NCBI RefSeq assembly: GCF_025717675.1
Contig: NZ_JAJIRT010000007.1
Span: 186,001 to 250,000 of the forward strand
DNA: 64,000 bases
From: Paucibacter sp. DJ2R-2
GTDB lineage: Bacteria > Pseudomonadota > Gammaproteobacteria > Burkholderiales > Burkholderiaceae_C
Direction of reading: 5' to 3'
This document shows positions 17,559-31,413 of the stretch, piece by piece. Position 1 is the stretch's first letter. Each line of letters begins with the position of its first letter. The notes beneath the pieces were generated by a model that saw only the letters and a list, made by a program, of their open reading frames with translations, ran no database searches and was not told where the DNA came from. Position numbers and translations under genes: made by a program.

Positions 17559-18950
17559 TCACTGGAAGAATCCCAGGTCTTTCTGCGTGTAGTTGCTGAT
17601 CTGCGGCATGACGCGACTCAGATCCGTGGCCGGCACGCCCATCCAGCTGGCCAAGGTGGCGCCGAGCTGGTCGACCGAGCTGCTGGGCAGCAGCCGGCCC
17701 TGGCCGACATCGTCCGGCCCGTTGACCGCGACCACCGGGGCCTGGCCCCAGAAGCGGCCGCCCTGGACGGCGCCACCCAGCACGAAATGATGGCTGCCCC
17801 AGCCATGGTCGGAACCGTCGCCATTGCTGCTCAAGGTGCGACCAAAATCGCTTGCGGTGAAAGCAGTGACCTGGTTGGCCACGCCCAGCTCCACCGTGGC
17901 ATCGTAAAAACTGCCCAGCGCCTCGGAGACCTTGCGCAGCAGGCCCGGGTGCTGGTCGGGCAGGAAATCGTGCAGATCGAAGCCGCCGATGGAGACGAAG
18001 AACACCTGGCGCTTGGCGCCCATGCTGCTGCGCGCGGCAATCATCTTGGCCACCATCTGCAGCTGGGTGGCTAGGTTGTTGGTCGTGTCGAATACCGTAC
18101 TCAGGGCCGGCAAGGTGTTCAGGGCCGAAGCGACGATGGACTGAGCATTGACCGAGCGGCTGACCACGCGGTTGAGCTCCTGCTCCATCCAGTGGCTGCG
18201 CTCGGCCGTGATCAAGCTGCGCAGCGCATCGGCGCAGGCTTGTGAGCCGTACATCGGCCGGGTGACGCCGTTGATGGCGACCGCGCCGCTGGTGGACATC
18301 TGGTACTGCACCGCCTGCTGTCCGGCCATGAAAACCGCATTGCCCGAGACATTGATGCAGGTGAAGGTGGCATTGCCGTTGGCGCCGAGGAACTGGTCGC
18401 CCAGGCGACCGCCCCAGCCAGAGATGGCGCCTTCGGGCGTGCTGGCCTGCCAGACGCTTTGCTGATCGTTGTGCGAGAACAGCTTGGGCGGCAAGGGCAC
18501 GCTCTGCGCCTTGTACTGGGCCAGGGTGGTGGGCTGAACCAGGGTGCCGACATTGAGCAGCACGCCGAGCTTGCCGGCGTCGAAGATGGTTTTCAGCCGC
18601 CCCATCTGCGGCGCCAGCGCCAGCTGCCGCGCACCGGGCAAGGCCACGCGCGGCGTCAGCGCCGTGGCGGCCAGTTGGTCACGCGGAATGGCCAGGGTCT
18701 GACGTATGGTCTGGTAGGCGGCGTGGTTGGGCGCGTCGTAGGGAATGACGGTGTTGCCATAGTCATTGCCGCCGTAAAGAAACACACAGACCAGAGCCTT
18801 GTAGTCGTTCGGCGCTGTCTGCGCCGCGGCTTCTCCGAGAGCGGCCAGATTGAGGGCCCAGGGCGCGGCCGCGCCGGCCACGCCGAGGGCGGAGGCGCGA
18901 CGCAGGAACTCGCGGCGTTGCAGGGTCTGGAGGCGGTGAACCGATGTCAT
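17559..18950 (-). CDS. DUF1501 family Tat-exported protein
   Basis: A 463-aa protein with a twin-arginine signal (QRREFLRRASALGVAGAAAPWAL) and the DUF1501 sulfatase-like fold: KALVCVFLYGGNDYGNTVIPYD at the start, FSHNDQQSVWQAS, and TAFTASDFGRTLSSNGDGSDHGWG near the end. The family is exported; no activity is firmly established. It directly follows the DUF1800 gene (17 bp), the usual pairing. ATG 18950 is chosen because it begins at the Tat signal; longer starts extend into the DUF1800 gene. Confidence 0.88.
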   Translation of the reverse strand: MTSVHRLQTLQRREFLRRASALGVAGAAAPWALNLAALGEAAAQTAPNDYKALVCVFLYGGNDYGNTVIPYDAPNHAAYQTIRQTLAIPRDQLAATALTPRVALPGARQLALAPQMGRLKTIFDAGKLGVLLNVGTLVQPTTLAQYKAQSVPLPPKLFSHNDQQSVWQASTPEGAISGWGGRLGDQFLGANGNATFTCINVSGNAVFMAGQQAVQYQMSTSGAVAINGVTRPMYGSQACADALRSLITAERSHWMEQELNRVVSRSVNAQSIVASALNTLPALSTVFDTTNNLATQLQMVAKMIAARSSMGAKRQVFFVSIGGFDLHDFLPDQHPGLLRKVSEALGSFYDATVELGVANQVTAFTASDFGRTLSSNGDGSDHGWGSHHFVLGGAVQGGRFWGQAPVVAVNGPDDVGQGRLLPSSSVDQLGATLASWMGVPATDLSRVMPQISNYTQKDLGFFQ

Positions 18951-18967
18951 GACAGGTCTCTCTCGCT

Positions 18968-20716
18968 TCACTTCTGGATCAGGTATTCGGGGCTGGCCAT
19001 GACCAGGAGGATGGCGGCCTGCACACGGTTCAGCTTGCCGGCATCGCTGCTGGCATTGATGGTCGCCACAGCAGTAGCGATGGTGTTGACCGTGGTGGGG
19101 CTCAAACCACCGCCGGCCAGCAGCAGGGCCACCCGCTGCACCAAGGCCGGCACATCGGCCGCCAGCGCCAGCTCGGCCGTGTAACTGGGCTTGACCTCGC
19201 CAGCGCCGCTGGCAATCACGGTCTGCATGTAGTTGAGGTAGCCGGCGACCGTGCTCTCGTTGCAGAGCTGGAACTCGGGCGCAGTGATCTGGGCCGTGCC
19301 CAGCTGCGAGTTGGGCGGCACATAGCCGGGCCGGAAAAAATTGAAAACCGAAGAGCTGCGCAGCGGGCTCTGGCCCAGACGGGTGGCCGGGTTGCTCAGA
19401 TCGCCGATGTTCCAGAGCTCGGTGGGCGAGTTCAGGCCGAAGCTGCGGCCCCACTGGATGAAGCGCTGGATGGGCTCACGCAAGCGGCCGCTGGAGGGCG
19501 AGCTGCCGGGCGTGCGCGCCTCGCTGTCCAGCAGCACCGCGCGGATCACGGCCTTGAGATCGCCGCGCTGGCCCTGGCCGTTGTTGTTGAACACGGCCGC
19601 CACCCGCTGCACATAGGCCGGACTGGGGTTGGAGGCAACCAGGCGCTGGATCAGCTGGCGGCTGAAGAAGGGGCCGGCATTGGCATGGTTGGCCAGGGTG
19701 TCGAGTGCGATCTTGAGCGCTTCCGGCCCGGTGGCCGAGGCCGGCACATCGACCGTCAACACCTTTTTGGGCCCGACTGAAAAGCGCGTGGCCAGATGCA
19801 CCATGGGCTTTTTCATGAAGGCCGGGTCGGTGGCGCTGGCGCCGTCGAACTCCCAGCCGGTCAGCACCCGCGCCAGCTCGCTGATCTGGGCCTGGGTGTA
19901 GGTGTCCTTGGGCTTGCCTGCGGCATCGAGCACCGGCGTGCCATCGGCCTTCAGCTCGACCAGGCCGATGGTGAAGAGCTGCATCAGCTCGCGCGCATAG
20001 TTCTCGTCGGGCAGACGGCCGCTGGCGGTGTCTTCCTTTTTGTTGCCGCGCATATTGAGGTAGACGCCCATGGCATTGGACAAGCTGACGCCGTCCAGCA
20101 AGTCACGGAAGCTACCAAAGGCGCGCTGCTCCAACATGTCCACATAGGCCGCCACGGCAAAACCTGGCCAGCTGATCGGCAGGCCGGCCATGGACACCAC
20201 GAAAATCTCCGACAACGCCAGCACCACCTTCTGCCGCAGCGGGTCGGGCGAGCTCATCAGCTTGCGCCAGAGCGAGTTGTCCACGCCATTGAAGTTGTTC
20301 TTGTTGGCCTCAACCGCATAGCCCTTGGCCACCATCCAGTCGAAATGCCCCTGGCTGATAGGCGCCGCGAACTGGGTATCGAGCCAGGCGGTGTAACCCT
20401 GGGCCTGGACCTTGGTGATCTCGGCCGTGCTGGCGGCAAAACCGGCCTGGGCCAGGAAGCGAGCCGCTTCGGCTTCGGTCGGCGGAGCAGGAGGTGGCGG
20501 CGGCGGCGGTGGTGGAGGAGCGGGCGTCGGCGAAGGCGCCGGGCTGCCATCGCTGCCGCCGCCTCCACCTCCGCAGGCGGCCAGGGGCGTCGCAGACAAG
20601 AGGCTGAGCCATCGCAGAGTCTGCGCCGGCGCATGTTCTGCGGCAGGAGCCGGCGCCGGCACGTTTGCCTCTGGCGCATCCACCGCAAGCAAGGATGGGG
20701 TGTCGTCTTGGATCAT
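18968..20716 (-). CDS. DUF1800 family exported protein
   Basis: A 582-aa protein. A hydrophobic segment with a lipobox-like end (LLSATPLAACGGGGGGS, Cys about residue 48) is followed by a low-complexity Gly/Ser then Pro-rich linker, and then the DUF1800 domain (FLAQAGFAASTAEITKVQAQGY to MASPEYLIQK). FTIGLVELKADGTP and LTGWEFDG are family-typical. Function unknown. The n-region before the lipobox is unusually long. ATG 20716 has a strong GAGAGAAG ribosome-binding site. Confidence 0.88.
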   Translation of the reverse strand: MIQDDTPSLLAVDAPEANVPAPAPAAEHAPAQTLRWLSLLSATPLAACGGGGGGSDGSPAPSPTPAPPPPPPPPPPAPPTEAEAARFLAQAGFAASTAEITKVQAQGYTAWLDTQFAAPISQGHFDWMVAKGYAVEANKNNFNGVDNSLWRKLMSSPDPLRQKVVLALSEIFVVSMAGLPISWPGFAVAAYVDMLEQRAFGSFRDLLDGVSLSNAMGVYLNMRGNKKEDTASGRLPDENYARELMQLFTIGLVELKADGTPVLDAAGKPKDTYTQAQISELARVLTGWEFDGASATDPAFMKKPMVHLATRFSVGPKKVLTVDVPASATGPEALKIALDTLANHANAGPFFSRQLIQRLVASNPSPAYVQRVAAVFNNNGQGQRGDLKAVIRAVLLDSEARTPGSSPSSGRLREPIQRFIQWGRSFGLNSPTELWNIGDLSNPATRLGQSPLRSSSVFNFFRPGYVPPNSQLGTAQITAPEFQLCNESTVAGYLNYMQTVIASGAGEVKPSYTAELALAADVPALVQRVALLLAGGGLSPTTVNTIATAVATINASSDAGKLNRVQAAILLVMASPEYLIQK

Positions 20717-20832
20717 GGCTTCTCTCGGAACAGGCTGCCACTCTAGCCTGCGCCTGCTCGGGCATTGAGCTGCCAACAGGCCTGCTTTGCAAGCGAATGT
20801 TGCAGGCTCGCGCCACATTCACCGCGACCATG

Positions 20833-20890: not shown

Positions 20891-21529
20891 TCAGAGCAAA
20901 GGCACGCCGGTCTTGCTCTGCACTTCTTCGCGGCTGACACCCTCGGCCAGCTCCACCAGCTTGAGGCCTTGCGGTGTCACGTCCATCACCGCCAGGTCGG
21001 TGATGATGCGGTTGACCACGCCCAGGCCGGTCAGCGGCAGGGTGCATTGGGGCAGGATCTTGAGGTCGGTGCTGCCGTCTTTCTTGCGCGCCACATGCTC
21101 CATCAACACGATCACGCGCTTGACGCCGGCCACCAGGTCCATGGCGCCGCCCATGCCCTTGACCATCTTGCCCGGGATCATCCAGTTGGCCAGATCACCC
21201 TTCTCGCTGACCTGCATGGCGCCGAGGATGGACAGATTGATCTTGCCGCCGCGGATCATGGCGAAGCTCTCATGACTGCCGAAGATGCTGGAGCCGGGGA
21301 TGGTGGTAACGGTCTGCTTGCCGGCGTTGATCAGGTCGGCGTCGACCTCGTCCTCGGTCGGGAAGGGGCCGATGCCCAGCATGCCGTTCTCGCTCTGCAG
21401 CCAGACCTCGATGTCCTTGGGCACGAAATTGGCCACCAGGGTGGGGATGCCGATGCCGAGGTTGACGTAGAAACCGTCTTGCAGTTCCTGGGCCGCACGG
21501 GCGGCCATTTGGTCTTGTGTCCAGGCCAT
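20891..21529 (-). CDS. scoB: 3-oxoacid CoA-transferase subunit B
   Basis: A 212-aa beta subunit that moves CoA from succinyl-CoA (or another donor) to acetoacetate or a related 3-oxoacid. The catalytic Glu lies in [15 protein letters not shown], whose ENG motif is typical of family-I CoA transferases. The GGGK-like segment [18 protein letters not shown] is conserved. ATG 21529 is chosen (AAGGA upstream); a TTG at 21535 overlaps the scoA stop. The donor and acceptor acids cannot be fixed; atoA or pcaJ type enzymes are alternatives. Confidence 0.88.
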
Positions 21530-21531
21530 GA

Positions 21532-22236
21532 TCAAGCATCCTTCACAGTCAGGGTACGTTTTTCAATGCGCTTTTCGGGCGTGGCATTGACCACGATGCG
21601 CTGGACATAGATGCCGGGCAGGTGCACGGCATCGGGGTCGATCTCGCCGACCTCGACCAGTTGTTCCACCTCGACCACCGTGATCTTGCCGGCCATGGCC
21701 ACAGCCGGGTTGAAGTTACGCGCCGTGCGGCGGAACACCAGATTGCCGCTCTTGTCGGCCTTCCAGGCCTTGACCAGGGAAACATCGGGCGTCAGCGCAT
21801 GCTCCAGCACATAGGTCTGGCCGTCGAACTCGCGCAGTTCCTTGCCTTCGGCGACGATGGTGCCCACACCGGTGCGGGTGTAGAAGGCCGGGATGCCAGC
21901 GCCGCCGGCGCGCAGCTTCTCGGCCAGCGTGCCTTGCGGGGTGAACTCCAGCTGCAGCTCACCGGCCAGGTACTGGCGCTCGAACTCCTTGTTCTCCCCC
22001 ACATAGCTGGAGATCATCTTCTGGATCTGGCGGGTTTCCAGCAACTGGCCCAGGCCAAAGCCGTCCACGCCGGCATTGTTGGAAATCACGGTCAAATCCT
22101 TGACGCCGCTGTCGCGTAGCGCGGCAATCAAAGCCTCGGGAATGCCGCAGAGGCCGAAGCCGCCCACGGCCAGCAGCTGCCCGTCACGGACTAGGCCGGA
22201 CAGGGCCTCAGCCGCACTCGCAAAAACCTTGTTCAT
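21532..22236 (-). CDS. scoA: 3-oxoacid CoA-transferase subunit A
   Basis: A 234-aa alpha subunit forming a heteromer with ScoB. The CoA-binding signature [22 protein letters not shown] lies near residue 24, and [16 protein letters not shown] follows. A strong ribosome-binding site (GGAGAAG) precedes ATG 22236. It is the first gene of the scoAB unit, divergent from the barrel/binding-protein operon with a 148-bp shared upstream region. Confidence 0.9.
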
Positions 22237-22296
22237 CGATGCTTCTCCATCCATCAATCAATCAAACAAACGATCCACCGGAAGGCGCTGAGCGTA

Positions 22297-22316
22297 CTAC
22301 CTAAGAGATTAGGTAG
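22297..22316. promoter_or_regulatory. Operator-like perfect inverted repeat
   Basis: CTACCTAA-GAGA-TTAGGTAG is a perfect 8-bp inverted repeat midway between divergent scoA and the barrel gene at 22385. A further CCTAA occurs at 22333-22337. TAGAAT at 22325-22330 could be a -10 element for the rightward operon, with no clear -35, so activation by a bound regulator is plausible. The regulator is not identified. Confidence 0.55.
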
Positions 22317-22384
22317 GCATTACGTAGAATCGCCTAACACTCGACGGTCGGAATGCGCACCCGCGCTCACTCCAGGAGAACCGC

Positions 22385-23617
22385 ATGAAGGGATGGCAAA
22401 CGCCTTGGCTCGCGTGGCTGTTGTACGGCCTCTGCGGCAGCGCGCTCGCGGACGGCGTGCAGCTGGAGGGCTTCGGCACCTTGTCGGCCTACCGCAATGA
22501 CGATGCGGTCGCTGCAGCCCGCCCCGGCGAACGCGTGAAGCAGGCATCTCAGGCTGGCCACTGGCGTGCCGACGGCGACACCGTCCTGGGCCTGCAGCTG
22601 CGCTGGCAGAGCAGCGACACCTTGGAATGGGTCTGGCAGGTGCAAGCCCGGGATGAGTTGACCCGCGGCTACCGACCGAACACCGAATGGGCCTATCTGG
22701 CTTGGCAGCTCGACCCCGAATGGACTCTGCGTATCGGGCGCCAGCCGCTACCGATCTTTCTGAGCTCCGAGAGCACGCGCGTGGGCTTTGCCCACACCTC
22801 CATCCGGCCCATGTCGGCGGTTTACGGCCTGAACAGCAGCGAGCCGGTCGACGGCATCAATGCCAGCTGGACCGGTACAGCACTGGGCGGCAACCTCAGC
22901 TGGGATCTGGGCGCCGGCCGCAACAGCCTCACCGTACCGACCGGACGCGTGGACACCCATGCGCTGCTGGCCAGTGCCTTGCGATGGCAGCGCGAAGGCC
23001 TGTCCTTGCGTCTGGGCGTGGCTGCGTTTCGCTTTGATTTGATCTCCCCAAGCCTGGAGACGCAATTGCAGGCGCTGACAAACTCGCAACAAGTCTGCGC
23101 CAATTGCAGCGAGGTCTTGCCGCAACGCGCGCGCTTCTCGGGCATGGAGGGGCGCTTATTCAATCTCGCCCTGGTCTGGGAGCATGAAGACTGGACGCTG
23201 ACGGCCGAAGCCATGCGACGGAGCGGCAATTCGGTTTTCAGCCCCGGGGTGCATGCCTGGTACGCCTTGCTATCGCGTCGCTATGGTCGGTGGACACCTT
23301 ATGTCGCGATCGGTCAATCCGCTTACACCGAGTCGCCGCTGGGCTTGCTAGCAGCAGCGGGCAGCCCCGAATCCAGCGCGCAAAGACTGGCGGACCTGGA
23401 CCGCAGCCTGCAACGCCCCTGGGACCGCCGCATCGAGCTGCTGGGCCTGCGCTGGGATTGTTTCGAGAAACTGGCCCTCAAGCTGCAGGTCGAACGCTGG
23501 ACCGCTACCCGCGACCGCAGCAGCCAGCGCGACGGCGAAATCCGCCTCCTACCGAACAGCGCGCCCTGGGATGGGCGTTTGAACATGCTGACGGTCAGCG
23601 CGGATTTTGTGTTCTGA
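22385..23617 (+). CDS. Predicted outer-membrane beta-barrel protein, copy 1
   Basis: A 410-aa protein with a signal peptide ending near GSALA and alternating amphipathic strands throughout. It ends in SADFVF, the C-terminal aromatic signature of outer-membrane porins. A Cys pair (CANC, about residues 239-242) lies in the middle. It is about the same length as, and clearly related to, the second barrel at 25214; both share EGFGTLSAYR/DGFGTLSAYR near the N-terminus and RxxTEWxYLxWxLDP. The substrate is unknown. A strong AGGAGAA precedes ATG 22385. It is the first gene of a seven-gene same-strand run. Confidence 0.75.
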   Translation: MKGWQTPWLAWLLYGLCGSALADGVQLEGFGTLSAYRNDDAVAAARPGERVKQASQAGHWRADGDTVLGLQLRWQSSDTLEWVWQVQARDELTRGYRPNTEWAYLAWQLDPEWTLRIGRQPLPIFLSSESTRVGFAHTSIRPMSAVYGLNSSEPVDGINASWTGTALGGNLSWDLGAGRNSLTVPTGRVDTHALLASALRWQREGLSLRLGVAAFRFDLISPSLETQLQALTNSQQVCANCSEVLPQRARFSGMEGRLFNLALVWEHEDWTLTAEAMRRSGNSVFSPGVHAWYALLSRRYGRWTPYVAIGQSAYTESPLGLLAAAGSPESSAQRLADLDRSLQRPWDRRIELLGLRWDCFEKLALKLQVERWTATRDRSSQRDGEIRLLPNSAPWDGRLNMLTVSADFVF

Positions 23618-23630
23618 ACACGGAGTGGAC

Positions 23631-24788
23631 ATGCCCAGCAGCCTCACTCAAAGAATGGACCCGGCCCTGGGTCGCAGCACCGCTTCGGGGTGGCTGACTC
23701 TGACATCGGCCCTGCTTCTGTGCCTTGCGATTCCCGACCAAGCTTGGTGCGCGGAGGACGTCCCGGCCTTGCGCGTCGCGGTCTCGAGAGCGATCAGCCC
23801 GCCCTTCGTCGTGTGGCGAGAGCAGCAAGCGAGTGCCGGCATTGATGTGGAGATTGCGCAAGAGCTGGCGGCCGGGCTCAAAACCCGCGTGGAGTGGGTG
23901 GCTTTGCCCAGGCTGCGGATTGAGGGCGCCTTGCTCAGTGGTGAAGCCGATATCGCCTGCAATCTGAGCCCCCTGCAAACTCTGCGCTCCGACAGCTTGC
24001 CCCAAAGCTCGCCCCTGTTCGACCTGCAAGACATGCTCAGCGCTCACCCAGATGCGACGGGCGTGGACGCCCTAGAGCAGCTGCCCAATGGCGCTGTGAT
24101 CGGCACCTTGCAAGGTCAGGCCTACCCGCAGCTCGACGCGCTGTTCCTGCAAGGGCGTGTCAAGCGAGACGATGCGCTCGACGAAGAGCGCATGCTGCGC
24201 AAGCTGGCGAAGGACCGCCATCCCTACGGCATCAGCAGTCGCCAGACCTTGAGCTGGTTCAGCAACCCGGGAGGCGAGGAGCGGCTGGCGTCCTGGCGCT
24301 TGCTTCTGGGTTCGCGCCCCTACCGGTGTACCGTGTCGCCACGGGGGCGATTTGAGGTCAAGCAGTTGCTGGCCGGCCTCGAACAACTGCTCAGCAGCGG
24401 CCGTATCGACCAAATCGTAGCCGCCCGAACCGCTCCGGCGCTGGCTGTGGTGGTGTCAGTGCGCAGCCCGGTGCGCGATGTCAGTCGCAGCGCCTTGATC
24501 GAGCTGTTCATGGGGAAACGCCAGAACCTGATGGACGAGGTTCCAACGCTCCCCGTGATGAGCGCCGGGCCTGAGCGCCAGCAGTTCTTTGCGGCCATCC
24601 TCAAGCGCGAACCGGCCCAGTACCGCGCGTCCTGGGCCACGCAACAGTTCGGTGGGCGGAGACGCGCACCCACAGAGTTGAGCAGCGCCGAGGCCACCAA
24701 AACATACTTGCAGCGCCATACTGAAGCCATCGGCTACCTGCCCCTGACCTTGGTCGACAGCTCCTTGCGCATCGTCTATCTGCCCTGA
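23631..24788 (+). CDS. Dual-domain periplasmic binding protein, copy 1
   Basis: A 385-aa exported protein. Residues about 45-250 resemble the SBP_bac_3 fold (LRVAVSRAISPPFVVWREQQASAGIDVEIAQELAAG; EADIACNLSP). Residues about 265-385 resemble the short PstS-like domain (VVVSVRSPVRDVSRSALIELFMGK, ending EAIGYLPLTLVDSSLRIVYLP). Cys in DIACNLSP and YRCTV match those in the second copy and may form a disulfide. ATG 23631 has GGAG 5 nt upstream and lies 13 bp after the barrel gene. No ABC permease is linked. Confidence 0.7.
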   Translation: MPSSLTQRMDPALGRSTASGWLTLTSALLLCLAIPDQAWCAEDVPALRVAVSRAISPPFVVWREQQASAGIDVEIAQELAAGLKTRVEWVALPRLRIEGALLSGEADIACNLSPLQTLRSDSLPQSSPLFDLQDMLSAHPDATGVDALEQLPNGAVIGTLQGQAYPQLDALFLQGRVKRDDALDEERMLRKLAKDRHPYGISSRQTLSWFSNPGGEERLASWRLLLGSRPYRCTVSPRGRFEVKQLLAGLEQLLSSGRIDQIVAARTAPALAVVVSVRSPVRDVSRSALIELFMGKRQNLMDEVPTLPVMSAGPERQQFFAAILKREPAQYRASWATQQFGGRRRAPTELSSAEATKTYLQRHTEAIGYLPLTLVDSSLRIVYLP

Positions 24789-24797
24789 AGGAACGCC

Positions 24798-25217
24798 ATG
24801 ACACCTGCTTCCACGATACAAGCCGCGGACCTGCAAGCCGCCCTGCCGCGAATTTTTGCGCCGTGGATTGCGAACATGGGACTGGAGGTGCTGAGCAGCG
24901 CGCCCGGTGAAGTGGAGCTGCGCCTGCCCGTGAAGCCCGAGTTCGTCCATGTCGGCGGCGTGATGTGCGGCCAGGTCGCCATGGCTGCGGCTGACACGGC
25001 CATGGTGCTGGCCATGATGGCCGAGTTGGGGGAATTCAAGCCCATGACGACGGTGCAGTTGCAGACCAGCTTTCTGCGCCCGGTCTCGGGACCGTTCTGC
25101 CTGATCCGCGCCAAGGTGCTGCGCAGTGGCAAAAGCCTGGCCTTCGGCAGCATCGACATCCTCAACCCCGACGGGCGCTTGGCCGCCCAGGCCACCACCA
25201 CCTACGCCCTGCTATGA
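24798..25217 (+). CDS. Hotdog-fold thioesterase, PaaI-like
   Basis: A 139-aa single hotdog domain: a helix region followed by FVHVGGVMCGQVAMAAADTAMVLA and the strands MTTVQLQTSFLRPVSGPFCLIRAKVLRSGKSLAFGSIDIL. PaaI/YdiI-type proteins hydrolyse acyl- or aryl-CoA thioesters. The usual catalytic Asp/Glu position is within ADTAM. It sits between the two barrel/binding-protein pairs and overlaps the next start (ATGA), so the thioesterase is likely co-expressed with the binding system. Confidence 0.8.
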   Translation: MTPASTIQAADLQAALPRIFAPWIANMGLEVLSSAPGEVELRLPVKPEFVHVGGVMCGQVAMAAADTAMVLAMMAELGEFKPMTTVQLQTSFLRPVSGPFCLIRAKVLRSGKSLAFGSIDILNPDGRLAAQATTTYALL

Positions 25218-26488
25218 AAACGCACTGGATCTGGCTCGGTCTGCTGCTGGCTGCTGGCCTGGCCCGCGCCGAACCCGTGGCCGTGGAGGCCAGAGGCGAG
25301 CTCGGCGACTGGCTCAAGCTGGACGGCTTCGGCACCCTGAGCGCTTACCGCGCCGACGATCCCGTCGCCAGCGTGCGGCCGGATGCCCGCAATGCCGTGG
25401 CCTCCTTGCGCGACTGGCGCTTGGACGGCGACAGCCAGCTCTCAACCCAGCTGACCGTGAACCCCAACGGCGCACTGCGCCTGGTCTGGCAGGTGCTGGC
25501 CAAGGACGACATCGTGCTGCGCTTCCGCCCGCGCACCGAATGGCTCTACCTGGACTGGGATCCCTCGGTCAACTTGAGTCTGCATGCCGGCCGCCTGGCC
25601 CTGCCGGTCTTCCAGCTGTCCGAGACCCGCAATGTGGCTTACGCGCAGACCAATGTGCGCCCCTACAGCTCGCTCTACCACCTGAACCCGATCACCAAGG
25701 TCGATGGCCTGGGAGCCGTCTGGCGCCAGCCTGTGGGTGCGGCCGAGCTGAGCCTGGACTGGGTGCATGGCCGGACGCAAGTGGACCTGAGCACGGGCCG
25801 GGTCAAGGCCAGTGCCATCAACGCCCTGGCTGCGCAGTGGAAACAAGGGCCCTGGAGCGTGCGCCTGGGGCGCTCGGACTACCGGCTGGATGCGCAGCTG
25901 CCCGGCACCCTGGCCCAGCTGCAAGTGCTGGCCTCGGGCGCCACCGGCTGCAGCAATTGCGCAGCCGTGCTGGCCGAACGGGCGCCGGCGCGGGTGCGCG
26001 CCGCCATCAACACCCTGGGCTTCAACCTGGAGCTCGGCCGCTGGAGCTTCAACAGCGAATGGATGCAGCGCCGCTCCGATTCCATTTTGGTGGCCGACGC
26101 CGATGCCTGGTATGCGCAGCTCGCGCATCGCCAAGGCGCTTTCACGCCTTTTATCGGCGTGGGCCGAACCCGCTTTGTCGAAGCGCCGCTGGGCTTTCAG
26201 ACCCGGGCTGGCGCACCGCCCGCCGCCCAAGCCGCCAACGCGGCTTTTGATCGCTTTTTGCAGAGCGCCAACGGCCGCCGCAGCTGGCAGGCTGGTCTGC
26301 GCTGGGACTGCGCGGAAAACCTGGCCCTCAAGCTGCATCTTGAGTGGCTGAAAAACACCCAGGAGATCCGCCTCGGCCAGACCGGCAGCATCAGCTACCC
26401 GGCCACGCCACCGATCGGCAACTACCAAGGTCCGGCTTGGGATGGCCATGTGCGCGTCTTGAGCCTGAACCTGGACTTTGTCTTCTGA
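25214..26488 (+). CDS. Predicted outer-membrane beta-barrel protein, copy 2
   Basis: A 424-aa paralogue of the barrel at 22385. Signal peptide to about residue 20, then strand-rich sequence ending SLNLDFVF with a terminal aromatic residue. A Cys pair CSNC (about residues 254-257) aligns with CANC in copy 1. Shared phrases include the N-terminal DGFGTLSAYRADDPVASVRPDAR and ENLALKLHLEW near the C-terminus. The copies are clearly diverged, so the duplication is old. The start overlaps the thioesterase stop by 4 bp. Confidence 0.75.
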   Translation: MKTHWIWLGLLLAAGLARAEPVAVEARGELGDWLKLDGFGTLSAYRADDPVASVRPDARNAVASLRDWRLDGDSQLSTQLTVNPNGALRLVWQVLAKDDIVLRFRPRTEWLYLDWDPSVNLSLHAGRLALPVFQLSETRNVAYAQTNVRPYSSLYHLNPITKVDGLGAVWRQPVGAAELSLDWVHGRTQVDLSTGRVKASAINALAAQWKQGPWSVRLGRSDYRLDAQLPGTLAQLQVLASGATGCSNCAAVLAERAPARVRAAINTLGFNLELGRWSFNSEWMQRRSDSILVADADAWYAQLAHRQGAFTPFIGVGRTRFVEAPLGFQTRAGAPPAAQAANAAFDRFLQSANGRRSWQAGLRWDCAENLALKLHLEWLKNTQEIRLGQTGSISYPATPPIGNYQGPAWDGHVRVLSLNLDFVF

Positions 26489-26505
26489 GCGCGGGGCCAA
26501 ACGCC

Positions 26506-27684
26506 ATGAGCCCAAGCCACACCCCGCACTCCCGGAAGGCCTTTGTCTACAAAGCCTTCGCCTGGCCCTGGCTGCTGAGCCTGGCGGTGCTGGCGGCGGC
26601 CGGCTTGGCCCAGGCCCAAAGTAGGACCGAACAGCGGGTTCTGCGCGTACCGGCCGTGCAATCCTGGTCTGCGCCCTATGCGCTGTACCGTGATGGCGCC
26701 CCGGTGGCCGGCATCAATCACGACATCGTCCAAGCCCTGGCCGAGCATTTGGGCATGAGCTTGCAGACCCTGGTGCTGCCGCGCACCCGGGTTGATGCAG
26801 CCGTCGCGGCCGGTGAACTGGACCTGCGCTGCCACCTCAGCCCCGACTGGGTGCGCGCGCCCGAGACCTACAGCTGGAGCGCGCCGCTGTTCGAATTGGC
26901 CACGGTGATGGTCGGCCATGAATCAGCAGTGCCGGTCTCCCACCTCGACCAGCTGCATCGCGGCCAGACCGTGGGCACGGTGCTGGGCTTTGTCTATCCA
27001 GGCCTGGAAGAGCGTTTCAGCGACGGGCGCCTGCGCCGTGACGACACCTTCGCGGTCGACCGCAATCTGCAAAAGCTCAAGCTGATCCGTTCACCCTATG
27101 CAGTGGCCGACACCCGCGAGATCGCCTGGCATCTGCGCCAGGACCCTGGCCACCAGTTCGCAGCGTGGCGCCTGCCCATCACAAGAACCGAATACCGCTG
27201 TGCCGTGCCCCGCAACGGCCGCATCGAGGCCACATTGCTGCTGGCCGGCTTCGAACGCCTGCTGGCCAGCGGTCAAATCGAGCGCATCGTTCGCAACTAC
27301 AGCCCGCCGCAGCCGGTGCTGGTGATGGCCGCGAACAGCGCTGTGCAGCAGCTGAGCCGGCAGCAGATCAGCGCCTTGTTTCTGGGCGAGGTGTTGGAGC
27401 TGCCCGGAGGCGGGCGGGTGGCGCTGGGCAGCCTCGGTGGCGCCTTGCGCCAGGAGTTCTTCAGCCAGGTGCTGGAAAAGGACGCCGCCCAACTCAAGGC
27501 CATCTGGTCGCGCATGACCTTCAGCGGCCGCGGCCGAGCACCACGCGAATTCAACACGGCCGCGGCCCTGCGGGCCTGGCTGATCAGCACGCCGAACGCC
27601 CTGGCCTTTCTGGACAGCAGCAGCCTCGACCCCACGCTGAAGGTTGTCTATATGCCAACGCCCGCCTCAGCGGCCAGCCCCTGA
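26506..27684 (+). CDS. Dual-domain periplasmic binding protein, copy 2
   Basis: A 392-aa paralogue of the protein at 23631 with the same architecture: signal peptide, SBP_bac_3-like half (LRVPAVQSWSAPYALYRDGAPVAGINHDIVQALAEHLG; LDLRCHLSPDW), then a PstS-like half (VLVMAANSAVQQLSRQQISALFLGE; ending NALAFLDSSSLDPTLKVVYM). The two Cys (LRCHLSP, YRCAV) match copy 1. ATG 26506 is chosen; the longer frame upstream lies inside the barrel gene. The substrate is unknown. Confidence 0.7.
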   Translation: MSPSHTPHSRKAFVYKAFAWPWLLSLAVLAAAGLAQAQSRTEQRVLRVPAVQSWSAPYALYRDGAPVAGINHDIVQALAEHLGMSLQTLVLPRTRVDAAVAAGELDLRCHLSPDWVRAPETYSWSAPLFELATVMVGHESAVPVSHLDQLHRGQTVGTVLGFVYPGLEERFSDGRLRRDDTFAVDRNLQKLKLIRSPYAVADTREIAWHLRQDPGHQFAAWRLPITRTEYRCAVPRNGRIEATLLLAGFERLLASGQIERIVRNYSPPQPVLVMAANSAVQQLSRQQISALFLGEVLELPGGGRVALGSLGGALRQEFFSQVLEKDAAQLKAIWSRMTFSGRGRAPREFNTAAALRAWLISTPNALAFLDSSSLDPTLKVVYMPTPASAASP

Positions 27685-27728
27685 GCCTGGCTGAGCCACA
27701 ATCGCGCCCTTGCACACACGGCTCCCTC

Positions 27729-28274
27729 ATGCCTCTCGACTACCGCACCGCCTTCGAGCTGGCGCCGATCGGCCTGCTGCTCTCGGCTCAGCGCCTGATC
27801 CAGGACTGCAACCAGCAGTTGCTGGACATCTTCCAGGCGCCGCGCTCGGCCTTGATCGGCCAGAGTCTGGAGCTGCTGTACCCCAGCGTGGTCGAGTTCG
27901 AACGCACCGGCGAACGCATCGTCGCCAGCCTCGACGCCCAAGGCTGCTATGCCGACGACAGGGTCATGCGCCGCTTGAGCACAGGCCAGCTGTTCTGGTG
28001 CCATGTCTCGGGCCGGGCCCTCAAGCCCGACGATCCCCATGCGGAAGGGATCTGGAGCTTTGCCGACTTGTCCGCCCATCGCCAGCTCAAGGCGGAGCTG
28101 ACCCCACGCGAACGCGAGATCGCCGCCCTGCTGATTGAAGGCCTGACCAGCAAGCTGATCGGCCGCCGCCTGGCCATCAGCCCGCGCACGGTCGATGTCT
28201 ACCGGGCGCGTTTGATGAAGAAGTACGGCGCGGCCTCAACGCCGGACCTGGTCCACAAGCTGCTGGTCATCTGA
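27729..28274 (+). CDS. PAS-LuxR transcriptional regulator
   Basis: A 181-aa regulator. Residues about 5-115 form a PAS-like sensory domain (FELAPIGLLLSAQRLIQDCNQQLLDIF; FWCHVSGRALKPDD). Residues 120-181 are a LuxR/NarL helix-turn-helix (LTPREREIAALLIEGLTSKLIGRRLAISPRTVDVYRARLMKKYGA). No receiver domain or phospho-Asp is present, so it senses a ligand or redox signal directly. As the only regulator in the 22.4-28.8 kb run it is the candidate controller of that operon. ATG 27729. Confidence 0.88.
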   Translation: MPLDYRTAFELAPIGLLLSAQRLIQDCNQQLLDIFQAPRSALIGQSLELLYPSVVEFERTGERIVASLDAQGCYADDRVMRRLSTGQLFWCHVSGRALKPDDPHAEGIWSFADLSAHRQLKAELTPREREIAALLIEGLTSKLIGRRLAISPRTVDVYRARLMKKYGAASTPDLVHKLLVI

Positions 28275-28294
28275 ATCCACCCACCGTCGCCCCC

Positions 28295-28774
28295 ATGAAG
28301 CAAAACCCTGTGCGCAGCATCTTCGACCCCGAGTTCACTGAGCGCCTGTGCGAGATGTTCGAGCGCCAGATCTGCTTCAACCAGGTGCTGGGCCTGCAGA
28401 TCGAATCGCTGGCCGCTGACGCAGCCAGCGCCAGCCTACAGATGCGGCCCGAGCTGATCGGCCATTTCACCCACCAGCGCCTGCATGGCGGCGTCATCAG
28501 CGCCACGCTGGATGCCATGGGCGGCCTGGCCGTGATGGCCGCCATCGGCGCGCGGCACCCGCTTGAGAGCGCCGAGGCCCGCCTGCAGCGCTTCGGCAAG
28601 CTGGGCACCATCGACCTGCGCATTGACTACCTGCGACCCGGCCATGGACCCGCCTTTCGCGCCACGGCCCAAGTGCTTCGCCTGGGCAGCCGCGTGGCCT
28701 CCACCCGCATGGAGTTCTTCGACACTGAAGACCGCCTGCTCAGCTGCGGCGCCGGCGCCTACATCGTTTCCTGA
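28295..28774 (+). CDS. yigI: Acyl-CoA thioesterase YigI-like
   Basis: A 159-aa hotdog thioesterase closely matching the E. coli YigI layout: helix MFERQICFNQVLGLQIESL, then HQRLHGGVISATLDAMGGLAVMAAI, and GTIDLRIDYLRPGHGPAFRATAQVLRLGSRVASTRMEF. YigI acts on medium- to long-chain acyl-CoA. It follows the PAS-LuxR gene by 20 bp and overlaps the convergent MFS gene by 16 bp. It may belong to the preceding operon or be independent. Confidence 0.82.
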   Translation: MKQNPVRSIFDPEFTERLCEMFERQICFNQVLGLQIESLAADAASASLQMRPELIGHFTHQRLHGGVISATLDAMGGLAVMAAIGARHPLESAEARLQRFGKLGTIDLRIDYLRPGHGPAFRATAQVLRLGSRVASTRMEFFDTEDRLLSCGAGAYIVS

Positions 28775-30030
28775 ACCTCCTGCGGCCGGGCCGCTTCACG
28801 CCGCGCCAGGCGCAGCAGCAGCAAAGACGCGGCCACGCAGCAGACACCGCCCAAGCCCATGATCCAGCGTGTGGACAGCAGGGCCAGGCCGCCGCCGATC
28901 ACCGCCATCAAGACATTCGACAGGCAGAACACCGTGGACAGCAGGCCCATCACCCGGCCCTGGCCATGGGCTGCAAAGCGCTCCGACATCCAGGCAGGCA
29001 GCACCGCGTTGTAGAGCGCCAGCGGCAAGCCCAGACTCACGATGGCGGCCAGGCCCAAAGGACCGGGCAACAGCACCAGGCTGCTCAGGCCCAGAGCCGC
29101 GCACAGCGCCAGCAAGGCCGCGCGCCGCAGGGGCCGGCGGCTGGCCGGCAAGCGGCCCGCCACCACGCTGGCCGTGGTCATGGCTGCGCATTGCGCCGCC
29201 GTCACCCAGGCGATGCCGGCGCTGCCCAGGCCCATGTTCTCCAGCATCCACAGCGGCGCGAACTCATACAGCGCATTGACGCCCAGGCAGTAGAGCAGCT
29301 GCAGCGCAAACAAGGCCGCCAAGACCGGATCGGCACGGAGCAGACCCAAGACCTGCTGCTCGCGCAACTGGCGCCAGAAACCCGGCTGTGGGGCGCCGCT
29401 GACCGCCGAGATTGGCCGCCAATCGGGAACCCACAGCGTCAGCACCAGCAGGCAGGGCAACATGGCCAGGCCGGCCAGCAGAAACGGCACGCTTTCGCCC
29501 AGCGGCAGGGTCAGGCCACCGACCAGCGGGCCTAGCAGCCAGCCCATGTAGAGGCAGGCATTGAGCCAGGCAAAAGCCTGCGTGCGGTCGATCTGCTCAT
29601 GCATATCGGCCAGCAAGGCGCGCGCCACCGCCACATTGCCTTCGGTCAGGCCGGTGATGAAGCGCGCCAGCACGAACAACAGGTACCAGCGCTGACCGAG
29701 AGCGAAGGCGGTCAAACCATAGCTGAGCAAGGTGGCGGTGATGGTCACGGCCAGCACACGGCGCCGGCCATGGCGATCGGACAGCGGGCCGATGAAGAGA
29801 TTGCCGATTAGGATGCCGAGCGGATTGGCCGCCAGGGCCAACCCCATCAGCAAGCGCGGGTCCAGCCCGGCGAAATGGGTGAAGTCGTCGACCGGCCCGC
29901 CGACAAAGATTGGCGCCAGGATGGGATAGGGCAAGGCCATGCCCACCGTGCTCATCAAGGACAGGGCGCAGATGGCCAGCAGCACCCAGCGTGGATGGCG
30001 GATGGCGGGCGCGGCAGGAGGTTGGCTCAT
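28759..30030 (-). CDS. MFS transporter (TetA/drug-efflux-like)
   Basis: About 423 aa with twelve predicted membrane helices. Motif A is visible between helices 2 and 3 (NLFIGPLSDRHGRRRVLA), and the proton-linked antiporter layout follows, with GMALPYPILAPIF in helix 1. The substrate is unknown; TetA-like drug exporters and sugar exporters share this pattern. ATG 30030 (MSQPPAAP) is chosen over 30063 because it starts just before the first helix. Confidence 0.82.
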   Translation of the reverse strand: MSQPPAAPAIRHPRWVLLAICALSLMSTVGMALPYPILAPIFVGGPVDDFTHFAGLDPRLLMGLALAANPLGILIGNLFIGPLSDRHGRRRVLAVTITATLLSYGLTAFALGQRWYLLFVLARFITGLTEGNVAVARALLADMHEQIDRTQAFAWLNACLYMGWLLGPLVGGLTLPLGESVPFLLAGLAMLPCLLVLTLWVPDWRPISAVSGAPQPGFWRQLREQQVLGLLRADPVLAALFALQLLYCLGVNALYEFAPLWMLENMGLGSAGIAWVTAAQCAAMTTASVVAGRLPASRRPLRRAALLALCAALGLSSLVLLPGPLGLAAIVSLGLPLALYNAVLPAWMSERFAAHGQGRVMGLLSTVFCLSNVLMAVIGGGLALLSTRWIMGLGGVCCVAASLLLLRLARREAARPQEVQETM

Positions 30031-30174
30031 TCGGGAACGTGGAAAAAAGAAAGCAGACGCCATGCGCCATGGAGGCGGCCGCCATCATGACAGCTCAGCT
30101 GCGTGCCGGGCCGCATGCAGGGCACAATCGCAACGCCTGTCGCCCTGCCCTTCAACGCTATTCCTCCTCTTCTC

Positions 30175-30903
30175 ATGCGCATCAAAGACTGCAACTGGTC
30201 CATGGTCGAGCGCTACCTGCGCCAGGACGATCGCGCCGTGCTGCCCCTCGGCAGCGTCGAGCAGCACGCTTTTCTGTCCCTGGCCGTGGATGCCATCCTG
30301 GCCGAAGAGGTGGCGGCGGCTGCGGCCGAGCCGCTGGGGGTGCCGGTCTTTCCGGCCCAGGCCTACGGCGTCACGCCGACCTATATGGCCTACCCGGGCA
30401 CCATGAGCTTGCGTCTGGAGACCCTGCTGCAGGTCTTGCGTGACCTGATCGGCTCGCTGCACCAGCATGGCTTTCGCCGCATCGTCATCGTCAACGGCCA
30501 TGGAGGCAACAACGGCGCAGCCGCACTTTTGCAAGCGCTGGGCGCGGAGCTTCCTGGCGCCCAGCTCAAATGGCACAACTGGTGGGCCGCGCCGCGCACC
30601 ATGGCTTTTGTGCGCGCCCAAGACCCGCAGGCTTCGCACGCCAGTTGGATGGAAAACTTCGAGGGCCTGACCCGCCTGCCCGGCGTCGCCCTGCCCGATG
30701 CACCCAAGCCTCTGGTCGACTACGCCCGCATGGCCTTGATGGACCCGGTCGCCAAGCGCGCCTACCTCGGCGACGGCTGCTACGGCGGCCACTACCAGCA
30801 GCCGCCGGCTGTGATGGATCAGCTCTGGGCCATCGCTGTGCAAGAAACCCGCGATATCCTCGACGGCCCCTGGTTGAGCACCCCATCCGCCTCCCAGGGC
30901 TGA
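30175..30903 (+). CDS. Creatininase family amidohydrolase
   Basis: A 242-aa protein of the creatininase/MftE family, whose members hydrolyse cyclic amides or peptides with two metals. The N-terminal metal site PLGSVEQHAFLSLAVDAILAEEVAAA keeps the Glu, His and Asp but departs from the common EQHGPHLPL form, losing one His. The second metal segment is RRIVIVNGHGGNNGAA with the conserved NGHGGN. ATG 30175 is chosen; upstream starts lie in a poorly coding stretch. The substrate is unknown. Confidence 0.82.
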   Translation: MRIKDCNWSMVERYLRQDDRAVLPLGSVEQHAFLSLAVDAILAEEVAAAAAEPLGVPVFPAQAYGVTPTYMAYPGTMSLRLETLLQVLRDLIGSLHQHGFRRIVIVNGHGGNNGAAALLQALGAELPGAQLKWHNWWAAPRTMAFVRAQDPQASHASWMENFEGLTRLPGVALPDAPKPLVDYARMALMDPVAKRAYLGDGCYGGHYQQPPAVMDQLWAIAVQETRDILDGPWLSTPSASQG

Positions 30904-30927
30904 GCCCTCCCTGTTTCTCCTAACGCC

Positions 30928-31413
30928 ATGCCTTTTCGTCCCGTCCCCGTCCCCGATCTGGGCAGCCCAATCCCCGGCCGGCTGTGGCTGCAGTCCATGC
31001 CCGGCCGGCTGGAATCCTGGCCCGCATTCCTTGACGAAGCCCGGCTGCGCCAGCTGCATTTGGTGGTCTGCCTGAATCCGCTGGAAGAAGTGGCCCAGCT
31101 ATCACCCGGCTATCACAAGGCCATTTCTGAGGGCCGCCTGCCCTTTCGCTGGCAACACTTGCCCATGCGCGACTTCGGCCTGGGCGCCGACCCGCAAGCC
31201 TTCCGCCAAGGCGTGGAGCAGATCGCCCACAGCCTGGTGCTGGGCGAACAGGTGCTGCTGCACTGCGCCGCCGGCATCGGCCGCACCGGCACGGTGGCCG
31301 CCTGCGTGCTGAAAAGCCTGGGGCTGCCGCGTGAAGCGGCCCTGGCCACCGTGCGCGCGGCCGGCTCCAACCCGCAATCGGCCCTGCAGTCGGGCTGGGT
31401 GGACCAGTTCTGA
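30928..31413 (+). CDS. Cys-dependent protein tyrosine/dual-specificity phosphatase
   Basis: A 161-aa protein with the active-site P-loop HCAAGIGRTG (Cys113, Arg119) of the Cys-x5-Arg phosphatases. The general-acid Asp is probably Asp82 in LPMRDFG. It belongs to the small dual-specificity-like group. The target is unknown. It is 24 bp after the creatininase gene and 2 bp before rluA, so it is part of a same-strand run. Confidence 0.88.
   Translation: MPFRPVPVPDLGSPIPGRLWLQSMPGRLESWPAFLDEARLRQLHLVVCLNPLEEVAQLSPGYHKAISEGRLPFRWQHLPMRDFGLGADPQAFRQGVEQIAHSLVLGEQVLLHCAAGIGRTGTVAACVLKSLGLPREAALATVRAAGSNPQSALQSGWVDQF

Follow-up and report, generated by a model that had tools for sequence, protein, structure and literature searches.

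We have examined a 64,000-nucleotide stretch of DNA from Paucibacter sp. DJ2R-2 (contig NZ_JAJIRT010000007.1, positions 186,001 to 250,000 of the forward strand; hereafter the window), in which seven open genes on the plus strand (22385–28774) lie opposite the CoA-transferase genes scoA and scoB. In order, the seven encode an outer-membrane barrel (barrel 1), a binding protein (BP1), a hotdog-fold thioesterase (hotdog 1), a second barrel and binding protein (barrel 2 and BP2), a PAS-LuxR regulator with a FixJ-like helix-turn-helix (HTH) and a YigI-like thioesterase. It is probable that this locus is a composite, made of a scoAB unit under the control of PAS-LuxR and of porin/binding-protein pairs added to it, and that it acts in the way proposed below. 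PAS-LuxR and scoAB are the older core unit of the window's family, and the barrel/BP pairs came later. A predicted operator, scoA and the PAS-LuxR gene are conserved together, with about one site per genome.

When 59 relatives were searched (E 1e-40), PAS-LuxR was matched in 32 of the 35 genomes of the window's family and in one genome outside it, G041; three genomes hold a second, weaker copy. The gene is divergent from scoA on the same contig, either directly adjoining it or after other operon genes, in 29 of these 33 genomes, G041 among them. The remaining four comprise G001 and G002, which are cut by contig ends, and G015 and G008, which carry PAS-LuxR and the hotdog gene away from scoA. 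A relative of scoB follows scoA in the scoAB loci examined, contig-end cases excepted, and a relative of hotdog 1 is present in the PAS-LuxR operon in 12 of the 33 genomes (G000, G011, G024, G015, G008, G009, G004, G013, G016, G017, G028, G022). In support of the initial annotation, PAS-LuxR, and in some genomes the hotdog gene, do accompany scoAB. Barrel and BP are found at scoA/PAS-LuxR in five of the 29 genomes (G000, G011, G006, G003, G024); because the other 24 have no pair there, we regard it as an addition to the PAS-LuxR/scoAB unit. Distant second copies of PAS-LuxR, at 49–50% identity, were seen at L123 (G020) and L126 (G034), and the copy in G034 comes after another scoAB-like pair with which it shares its strand.

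The operon and scoAB share a 148-nucleotide region from which they are transcribed in opposite directions, as had been noted initially. Upstream of scoA it holds the predicted operator, a FixJ-like array of TAC(C/G)TA half-sites, which takes two layouts. The first, that of the genus and its near relatives, is TACTAC-N20-TACGTAG followed by TCGCCTAA or a similar sequence; the second, TACTACNTA-N6-TANGTAG, is seen in other genera. With at most two mismatches allowed to any one of four patterns, the operator was found in 37 of 38 scoA regions as against 1% of 3,800 letter shuffles, a count that is in-sample because the patterns were drawn from the sequences counted, and one in which the shuffles preserve letter content only. 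The regions are those of genomes where PAS-LuxR was seen, with the exception of G014 (79% complete), which was kept though PAS-LuxR was not found there, the contig ending first; G001 was left out on account of a contig end. The sole miss is G041, outside the family. The operator is absent from all four scoA regions without PAS-LuxR (G023 in the family; G055, G036 and G037 outside it), a contrast for which kinship may account in part, since three of the four genomes lie outside the family. It is likewise absent from all seven upstream regions of barrels or hotdogs that lie away from scoA. It has been kept with scoA in G015 and G008, where PAS-LuxR lies elsewhere.

Searches of whole genomes point to about one site in each. 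The inverted repeat CTACCTAAGAGATTAGGTAG of box A is found exactly once in the genome, and two more places differ from it by three mismatches; the reversed control gave 12 places per strand. Box B, with at most two mismatches, occurs at one place in each of 18 out of 18 genomes of the genus, upstream of scoA in 17 and, in G001, next to PAS-LuxR where the contig ends; three further places appear at three mismatches, and the reversed control gave 26 places in total over the 18 genomes at up to three mismatches. Layout 2, searched in the 59 relatives with at most two mismatches, was found at the scoA region in 25 of the 35 family genomes and at three other places in the family; the 24 genomes outside the family gave 14 places, none of them at scoA.

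The best NCBIfam match of PAS-LuxR is FixJ, over the HTH part only and at 51.3 bits of the 255 needed; PAS and GerE domains were matched and a receiver domain was not. From these domains the protein would be cytosolic. The consensus for FixJ from systematic evolution of ligands by exponential enrichment (SELEX) is GTAMGTAG (PMC4999443), which the half-sites resemble. That sequence is present with no more than one mismatch in 36 of the 38 scoA regions, against 19% of shuffles. Given this likeness, the predicted half-sites fit the FixJ-like HTH of PAS-LuxR, which would be the protein that binds them. PAS-LuxR differs from FixJ in having a PAS domain in place of the receiver and in being linked to scoAB, with no partner kinase gene among the seven. 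A parallel, although not one of homology, is found in the control of acetate metabolism by MxtR/ErdR (CrbS/CrbR) in Pseudomonas, where ErdR, a LuxR-type regulator, likewise governs a putative CoA-transferase gene. In Pseudomonas putida, ErdR binds the scpC promoter (PMC8402216), and scpC putatively encodes a short-chain CoA-transferase. MxtR/ErdR is, however, a two-component system with several targets and an ACTU motif, whereas PAS-LuxR is a one-component regulator for which each genome has about one predicted site.

The binding proteins of the pairs are fusions of an SBP_bac_3 domain with a PstS-like lobe. At E 1e-50, 13 of 399 family genomes had a match, 10 of them full-length and three in the N-domain only. 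Full-length fused proteins are present in 16 genomes as 19 pairs, every one of them with the barrel directly upstream of the BP. The pair is at scoAB in 11 of the 16 (G000, G011, G002, G006, G003, G024, G076, G199, G219, G115, G245), with a 414-amino-acid open frame intervening in G219, and the pairing first seen in the window is thus conserved elsewhere. Roseateles asaccharophilus DSM 25082 and Paucibacter oligotrophus CHU3 are environmental strains that have a single pair at this place. Maximum-likelihood trees of the BPs and of the barrels do not conflict on supported branches. Both support a type 1 group (BPs 100/99, barrels 93/95) of 12 rows: window pair 1, G011_1, G002_1, G006, G003, G076, G199, G219, Pelomonas, G115, G015 and G008. 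Type 2 (window pair 2, G011_2, G024, G245, G271, G188 and, in the barrel tree, G002_2) is the remainder and is not established as one clade, the BP tree being unrooted and the barrel tree unresolved there. The BP tree has one row fewer than there are pairs (18 against 19) because a contig end cuts the second BP of G002. One pair of each type is found together only in the window, G011 and G002.

The two window pairs had been described as diverged tandem duplicates. Their gene order is indeed the same and they have diverged (39% identity between the barrels and 35% between the BPs), but a recent tandem duplication was rejected: the window pairs belong to two old groups. They cluster with the pairs of different genomes, and other scoAB loci have a pair of just one group or the other. 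The same distribution bears on whether the pairs belong where they are. They could merely sit behind the scoA promoter after a chance insertion, with no functional tie to CoA metabolism, which would suit the 24 genomes that have scoA and PAS-LuxR and no pair, and the five that carry the pair elsewhere. We consider this unlikely, as both groups take the same place at scoAB across five genus codes, type 1 in nine genomes (G000, G011, G002, G006, G003, G076, G199, G219, G115) and type 2 in G024 and G245 besides G000, G011 and G002, and as the gaps between the genes are short, with hotdog 1 overlapping barrel 2.

The AlphaFold2 model of BP1 (pLDDT 86.0, pTM 0.79) shows a type II clamshell at residues 42–270, with Z scores of 17–19 against amino-acid binding proteins and the sensor domain of MltF, and a small alpha/beta domain at residues ~271–385. 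The structure matches cover mainly residues 42–270 and barely assess the fold of the C-domain, which was therefore assigned by sequence profile: a profile of the C-domain with its standalone relatives matches residues ~72–185 of PstS1 (4exl, E 1.3e-9), which is one lobe. The idea of a dual-domain binding protein holds in so far as there are two domains, but there is no second complete binding protein; a fully dual protein was rejected, for by sequence both the C-domain and the standalone protein align to a single lobe and not to the two-lobed PstS clamshell. The N-domain resembles the SBP_bac_3 proteins (PF00497; GlnBP, LAO, the MltF sensor domain) in sequence and predicted fold, BP1 above the domain cut-off and BP2 under it (22.0 bits for a cut-off of 26.4). 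The window proteins differ from these in being fused to a PstS lobe and paired with a porin, and in having no ATP-binding cassette (ABC) permease in their operon. The likeness to PstS (TIGR02136, PF12849) is confined to one of two lobes, with the scores shown below the curated cut-offs. Two cysteines of BP1, C110 and C233, are invariant in 18 aligned proteins.

A full SBP_bac_3 clamshell, as modelled for the N-domain of BP1 with amino-acid binding proteins among its best matches, would suit an orphan uptake system, in which the BP supplies a permease, of the ABC or another kind, whose gene lies at another place in the genome, and the porin is the outer-membrane channel. The SBP_bac_3 fold also serves without transport, as in MltF and BvgS. 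A scan with family profiles matched no permease or ATPase in any of the seven proteins, as had been inferred from the window at the start, so the permease and ATPase that would be encoded alongside the binding protein of an ABC importer are missing here. Uptake of this kind would also leave the fused PstS lobe unexplained, and the likeness to MltF and BvgS is to a fold used without transport; we hold it to be improbable.

Barrel 1 is modelled with 16 strands (AlphaFold2; pLDDT 86.5, pTM 0.82), as in the general porins, and with a long loop after strand 5, again as in porins. Its best matches in the PDB are general porins such as chitoporin and Omp32 (Foldseek, E down to 1e-14), PorB being a further 16-strand porin to which the predicted fold can be likened. 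No Pfam model matched the window barrels at E 1; among the barrels of standalone relatives, L044 (30.4 bits) and L045 (38.3 bits) pass the Porin_4 cut-off of 27 and L046 has no match. What sets the window barrels apart from general porins is their binding-protein partner and a CxNC motif in predicted loop L5. The motif is present in 19 of 19 fused-type barrels as against none of 27 barrels paired with a standalone PstS lobe. In barrel 1 it reads CANC (residues 238–241; window 23096–23107) and lies in the long loop L5 after strand 9, which is predicted to be outside; barrel 2 has CSNC.

We propose that PAS-LuxR binds the half-site array in the region separating scoA from the divergent operon and regulates the two, perhaps by activation, since a sigma-70 scan of 22000–29000 gave no promoter-like match at the operator and one weak match elsewhere, which is at chance level. 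One lineage of the family would have brought the barrel and the fused binding protein into this unit. As the most likely action, judged from fold and context, the porin would admit a small organic acid, the clamshell would capture it in the periplasm, and the PstS lobe would serve for docking, tethering the binding protein either to the porin or to some inner-membrane partner whose gene lies elsewhere. Expression of the operon would then join this envelope step to the thioesterases and to ScoAB, which moves short-chain oxoacids onto CoA.

Several observations weigh against this scheme, in addition to the in-sample operator count and the part that kinship may play in the operator contrast. The exact FixJ site GTAMGTAG is present in only two of the 38 scoA regions, and G041, whose PAS-LuxR is 54% identical and divergent from scoA, has no operator. 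There is no inner-membrane sensor or transporter among the seven genes, so that the operon itself offers no next step after capture. By our reading of the alignment, a basic residue near the usual position for the amino-acid carboxylate is only loosely kept, and the net charges of the barrels give no sign of anion selectivity. The pair can also do without scoAB, because five of the 16 genomes (G015, G008, Pelomonas UHG3, G271, G188) carry it elsewhere. In G015 and G008 one gene separates it from an acetyl-CoA hydrolase/transferase gene, which may be there by chance because the two genomes are close relatives; the surroundings of the pair in Pelomonas UHG3, G271 and G188 gave no recognisable CoA-transferase.

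Other genes beside the displaced pairs were also recorded. A bestrophin gene is near the pair in G015 and G008 (L041:8035-14268, L042). In G271 and G188 (L149, L150) the pair adjoins a ZIP metal transporter, and also a gene that we take to encode a universal-stress-type protein. At L147:7009-8664 and L061:11048-12817 (G115, Roseateles asaccharophilus), a gene with a TonB C-terminal domain lies on the opposite strand between BP and hotdog/PAS-LuxR.

The PstS lobe is also found on its own, in proteins of ~145 amino acids. It adjoins a barrel in all 27 sampled loci of relatives, which are a part, mostly the better-scoring, of ~61 C-domain-only matches (hand count), and for which the hidden Markov model of the barrel had been built with six of the barrels that it later matched (L044, L045, L046, L051, L053, L055). 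Across the phylum the lobe was found in 64 of 398 genomes at E 1e-10, the window genome included. A barrel adjoins it in 28 of the 29 best-scoring loci, which exclude the window genome and were not part of the barrel model; at the remaining locus, L203, a 421-amino-acid open frame takes that place. In the window pairs, as in the single-lobe pair, the barrel is directly beside the PstS lobe, and the fused pair resembles, and probably derives from, this widespread porin/single-lobe pair.

The neighbours of the single-lobe pair could point to a sensory role. At the 27 loci they include a methyl-accepting chemotaxis protein (MCP) in 12, a kinase or HD-GYP protein (adjoining or nearly so) in four and a GGDEF protein in one. 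Over the single-lobe loci, both these and those that follow, twenty neighbouring proteins (one from Vibrio) and one MCP were scanned with Pfam; the type of the others was assigned from the GGDEF motif or from BLAST against one reference each for MCP, kinase and HD-GYP. Of the 29 phylum-wide loci, 13 have a signalling gene within 1.5 kb: four kinase-like, four GGDEF (two by motif only, one on the opposite strand), two MCP-like, two PAS and one SpoIIE phosphatase. Among the other 16, five had one neighbour scanned with Pfam, with no sensor found. At two Vibrio loci a kinase-like gene adjoins the pair, confirmed by Pfam for L066. The pairs of the window could accordingly be a sensory front end, in which porin and PstS lobe signal to an inner-membrane receptor (MCP, kinase or cyclase) whose gene lies elsewhere, and scoAB would be tied to them only through common regulation by nutrient state. 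We think this possible and rather doubtful. The 12 loci with an MCP seem to be a single locus passed on by descent, and no sensor was recognised in 10 of the 27 single-lobe loci. In the window, a family scan of the seven genes, scoA, DUF1800 and MFS gave no MCP, kinase or cyclase, and neither BLAST nor the GGDEF motif gave a sensor gene within 5 kb. A check within 5 kb of the fused pairs in 16 genomes (one MCP, kinase and HD-GYP reference each, and the GGDEF motif; G002 cut by contig ends) gave one sensor gene, an MCP in G003 past scoB and ~1.6 kb from the barrel; G005 has an MCP at the same place but no barrel/BP pair at its scoAB locus. These MCP-like genes adjoin scoB at L040:4267-5814 (G003) and L106:5290-6837 (G005) and have 56–58% identity to the MCP reference.

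A broader and tentative suggestion is that porin and half-PstS form a phylum-wide signalling pair from outer membrane to periplasm, to which the window's lineage added the clamshell, the CxNC motif and one-target control by PAS-LuxR. The half binding protein might read the occupancy or contents of the pore and pass this on to chemoreceptors, kinases and cyclases, and the cell could thereby couple pore traffic to the CoA activation of short-chain oxoacids. Sensing through the pore, if it takes place, would give Gram-negative cells a new means of reading their environment. As a gene pair, porin and half binding protein recur across the phylum, often beside sensor genes, and the regulator, which most of the searched genomes of a large bacterial family possess, now has a predicted operator and a candidate single target. 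Among the matches listed from the open-licence literature, neither the porin/half-PstS pair nor the scoAB operator is described in any title or abstract start, which is weak evidence of absence.

Table 1. Features of the locus, with positions in the window
Feature	Position	Strand	Basis
scoB, CoA-transferase subunit B	20891–21535	-	translation
scoA, 3-oxoacid CoA-transferase subunit A	21532–22236	-	TIGR02429 265.3 bits (cut-off 128.5); CoA_trans 275.8
Predicted operator box A, TACTAC and inverted repeat CTACCTAAGAGATTAGGTAG (22297–22316)	22295–22316		conserved in relatives
Predicted operator box B, ATTACGTAGAATCGCCTAA	22319–22337	+	conserved upstream of scoA in the genus
Barrel 1, predicted 16-strand porin-fold outer-membrane protein	22385–23617	+	AlphaFold2, Foldseek, CANC motif
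BP1, SBP_bac_3 clamshell and PstS-like lobe	23631–24788	+	PF00497 33.9 bits (cut-off 26.4), AlphaFold2
Hotdog-fold thioesterase 1	24798–25217	+	PF03061 42.4 bits; TIGR00369 46.5 bits
Barrel 2, other group	25214–26488	+	tree; CSNC motif
BP2, other group of fused SBP_bac_3 and PstS-lobe protein	26506–27684	+	35% to BP1; tree
PAS-LuxR regulator, 181 amino acids, FixJ-like HTH	27729–28274 (ATG)	+	GerE 56.9 bits
YigI-like hotdog thioesterase	28295–28774	+	PRK11688 198.9 bits (cut-off 107)

The compact arrangement of the seven genes described at the outset was confirmed: with likely ATG starts, the successive gaps are 13, 9, -4, 17, 44 and 20 nucleotides. All starts are approximate because the open reading frame finder was a simple one based on GC by position, and those of BP1 and BP2 are likely ATGs. 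ScoA scores above the TIGR02429 cut-off and the YigI-like protein above the equivalog cut-off of PRK11688; the gene for the latter overlaps a convergent MFS gene (28759–30063, minus) by 16 nucleotides and is found at that place only in G000, G011 and G002 among the loci examined. Terminator-like hairpins in 22000–29000 are at chance level (4 seen, 4.5 expected), and Rfam and tRNA scans gave no match. On the far side of scoAB, a DUF1800 gene and a DUF1501 gene adjoin it (17562–20818, minus); relatives of DUF1800 lie at or near scoAB in G011, L059, L060, G016, G017, G115 and G245, some of them with DUF1501. Directly past the MFS gene are a creatininase-family gene and a gene resembling a dual-specificity phosphatase (30103–31410).

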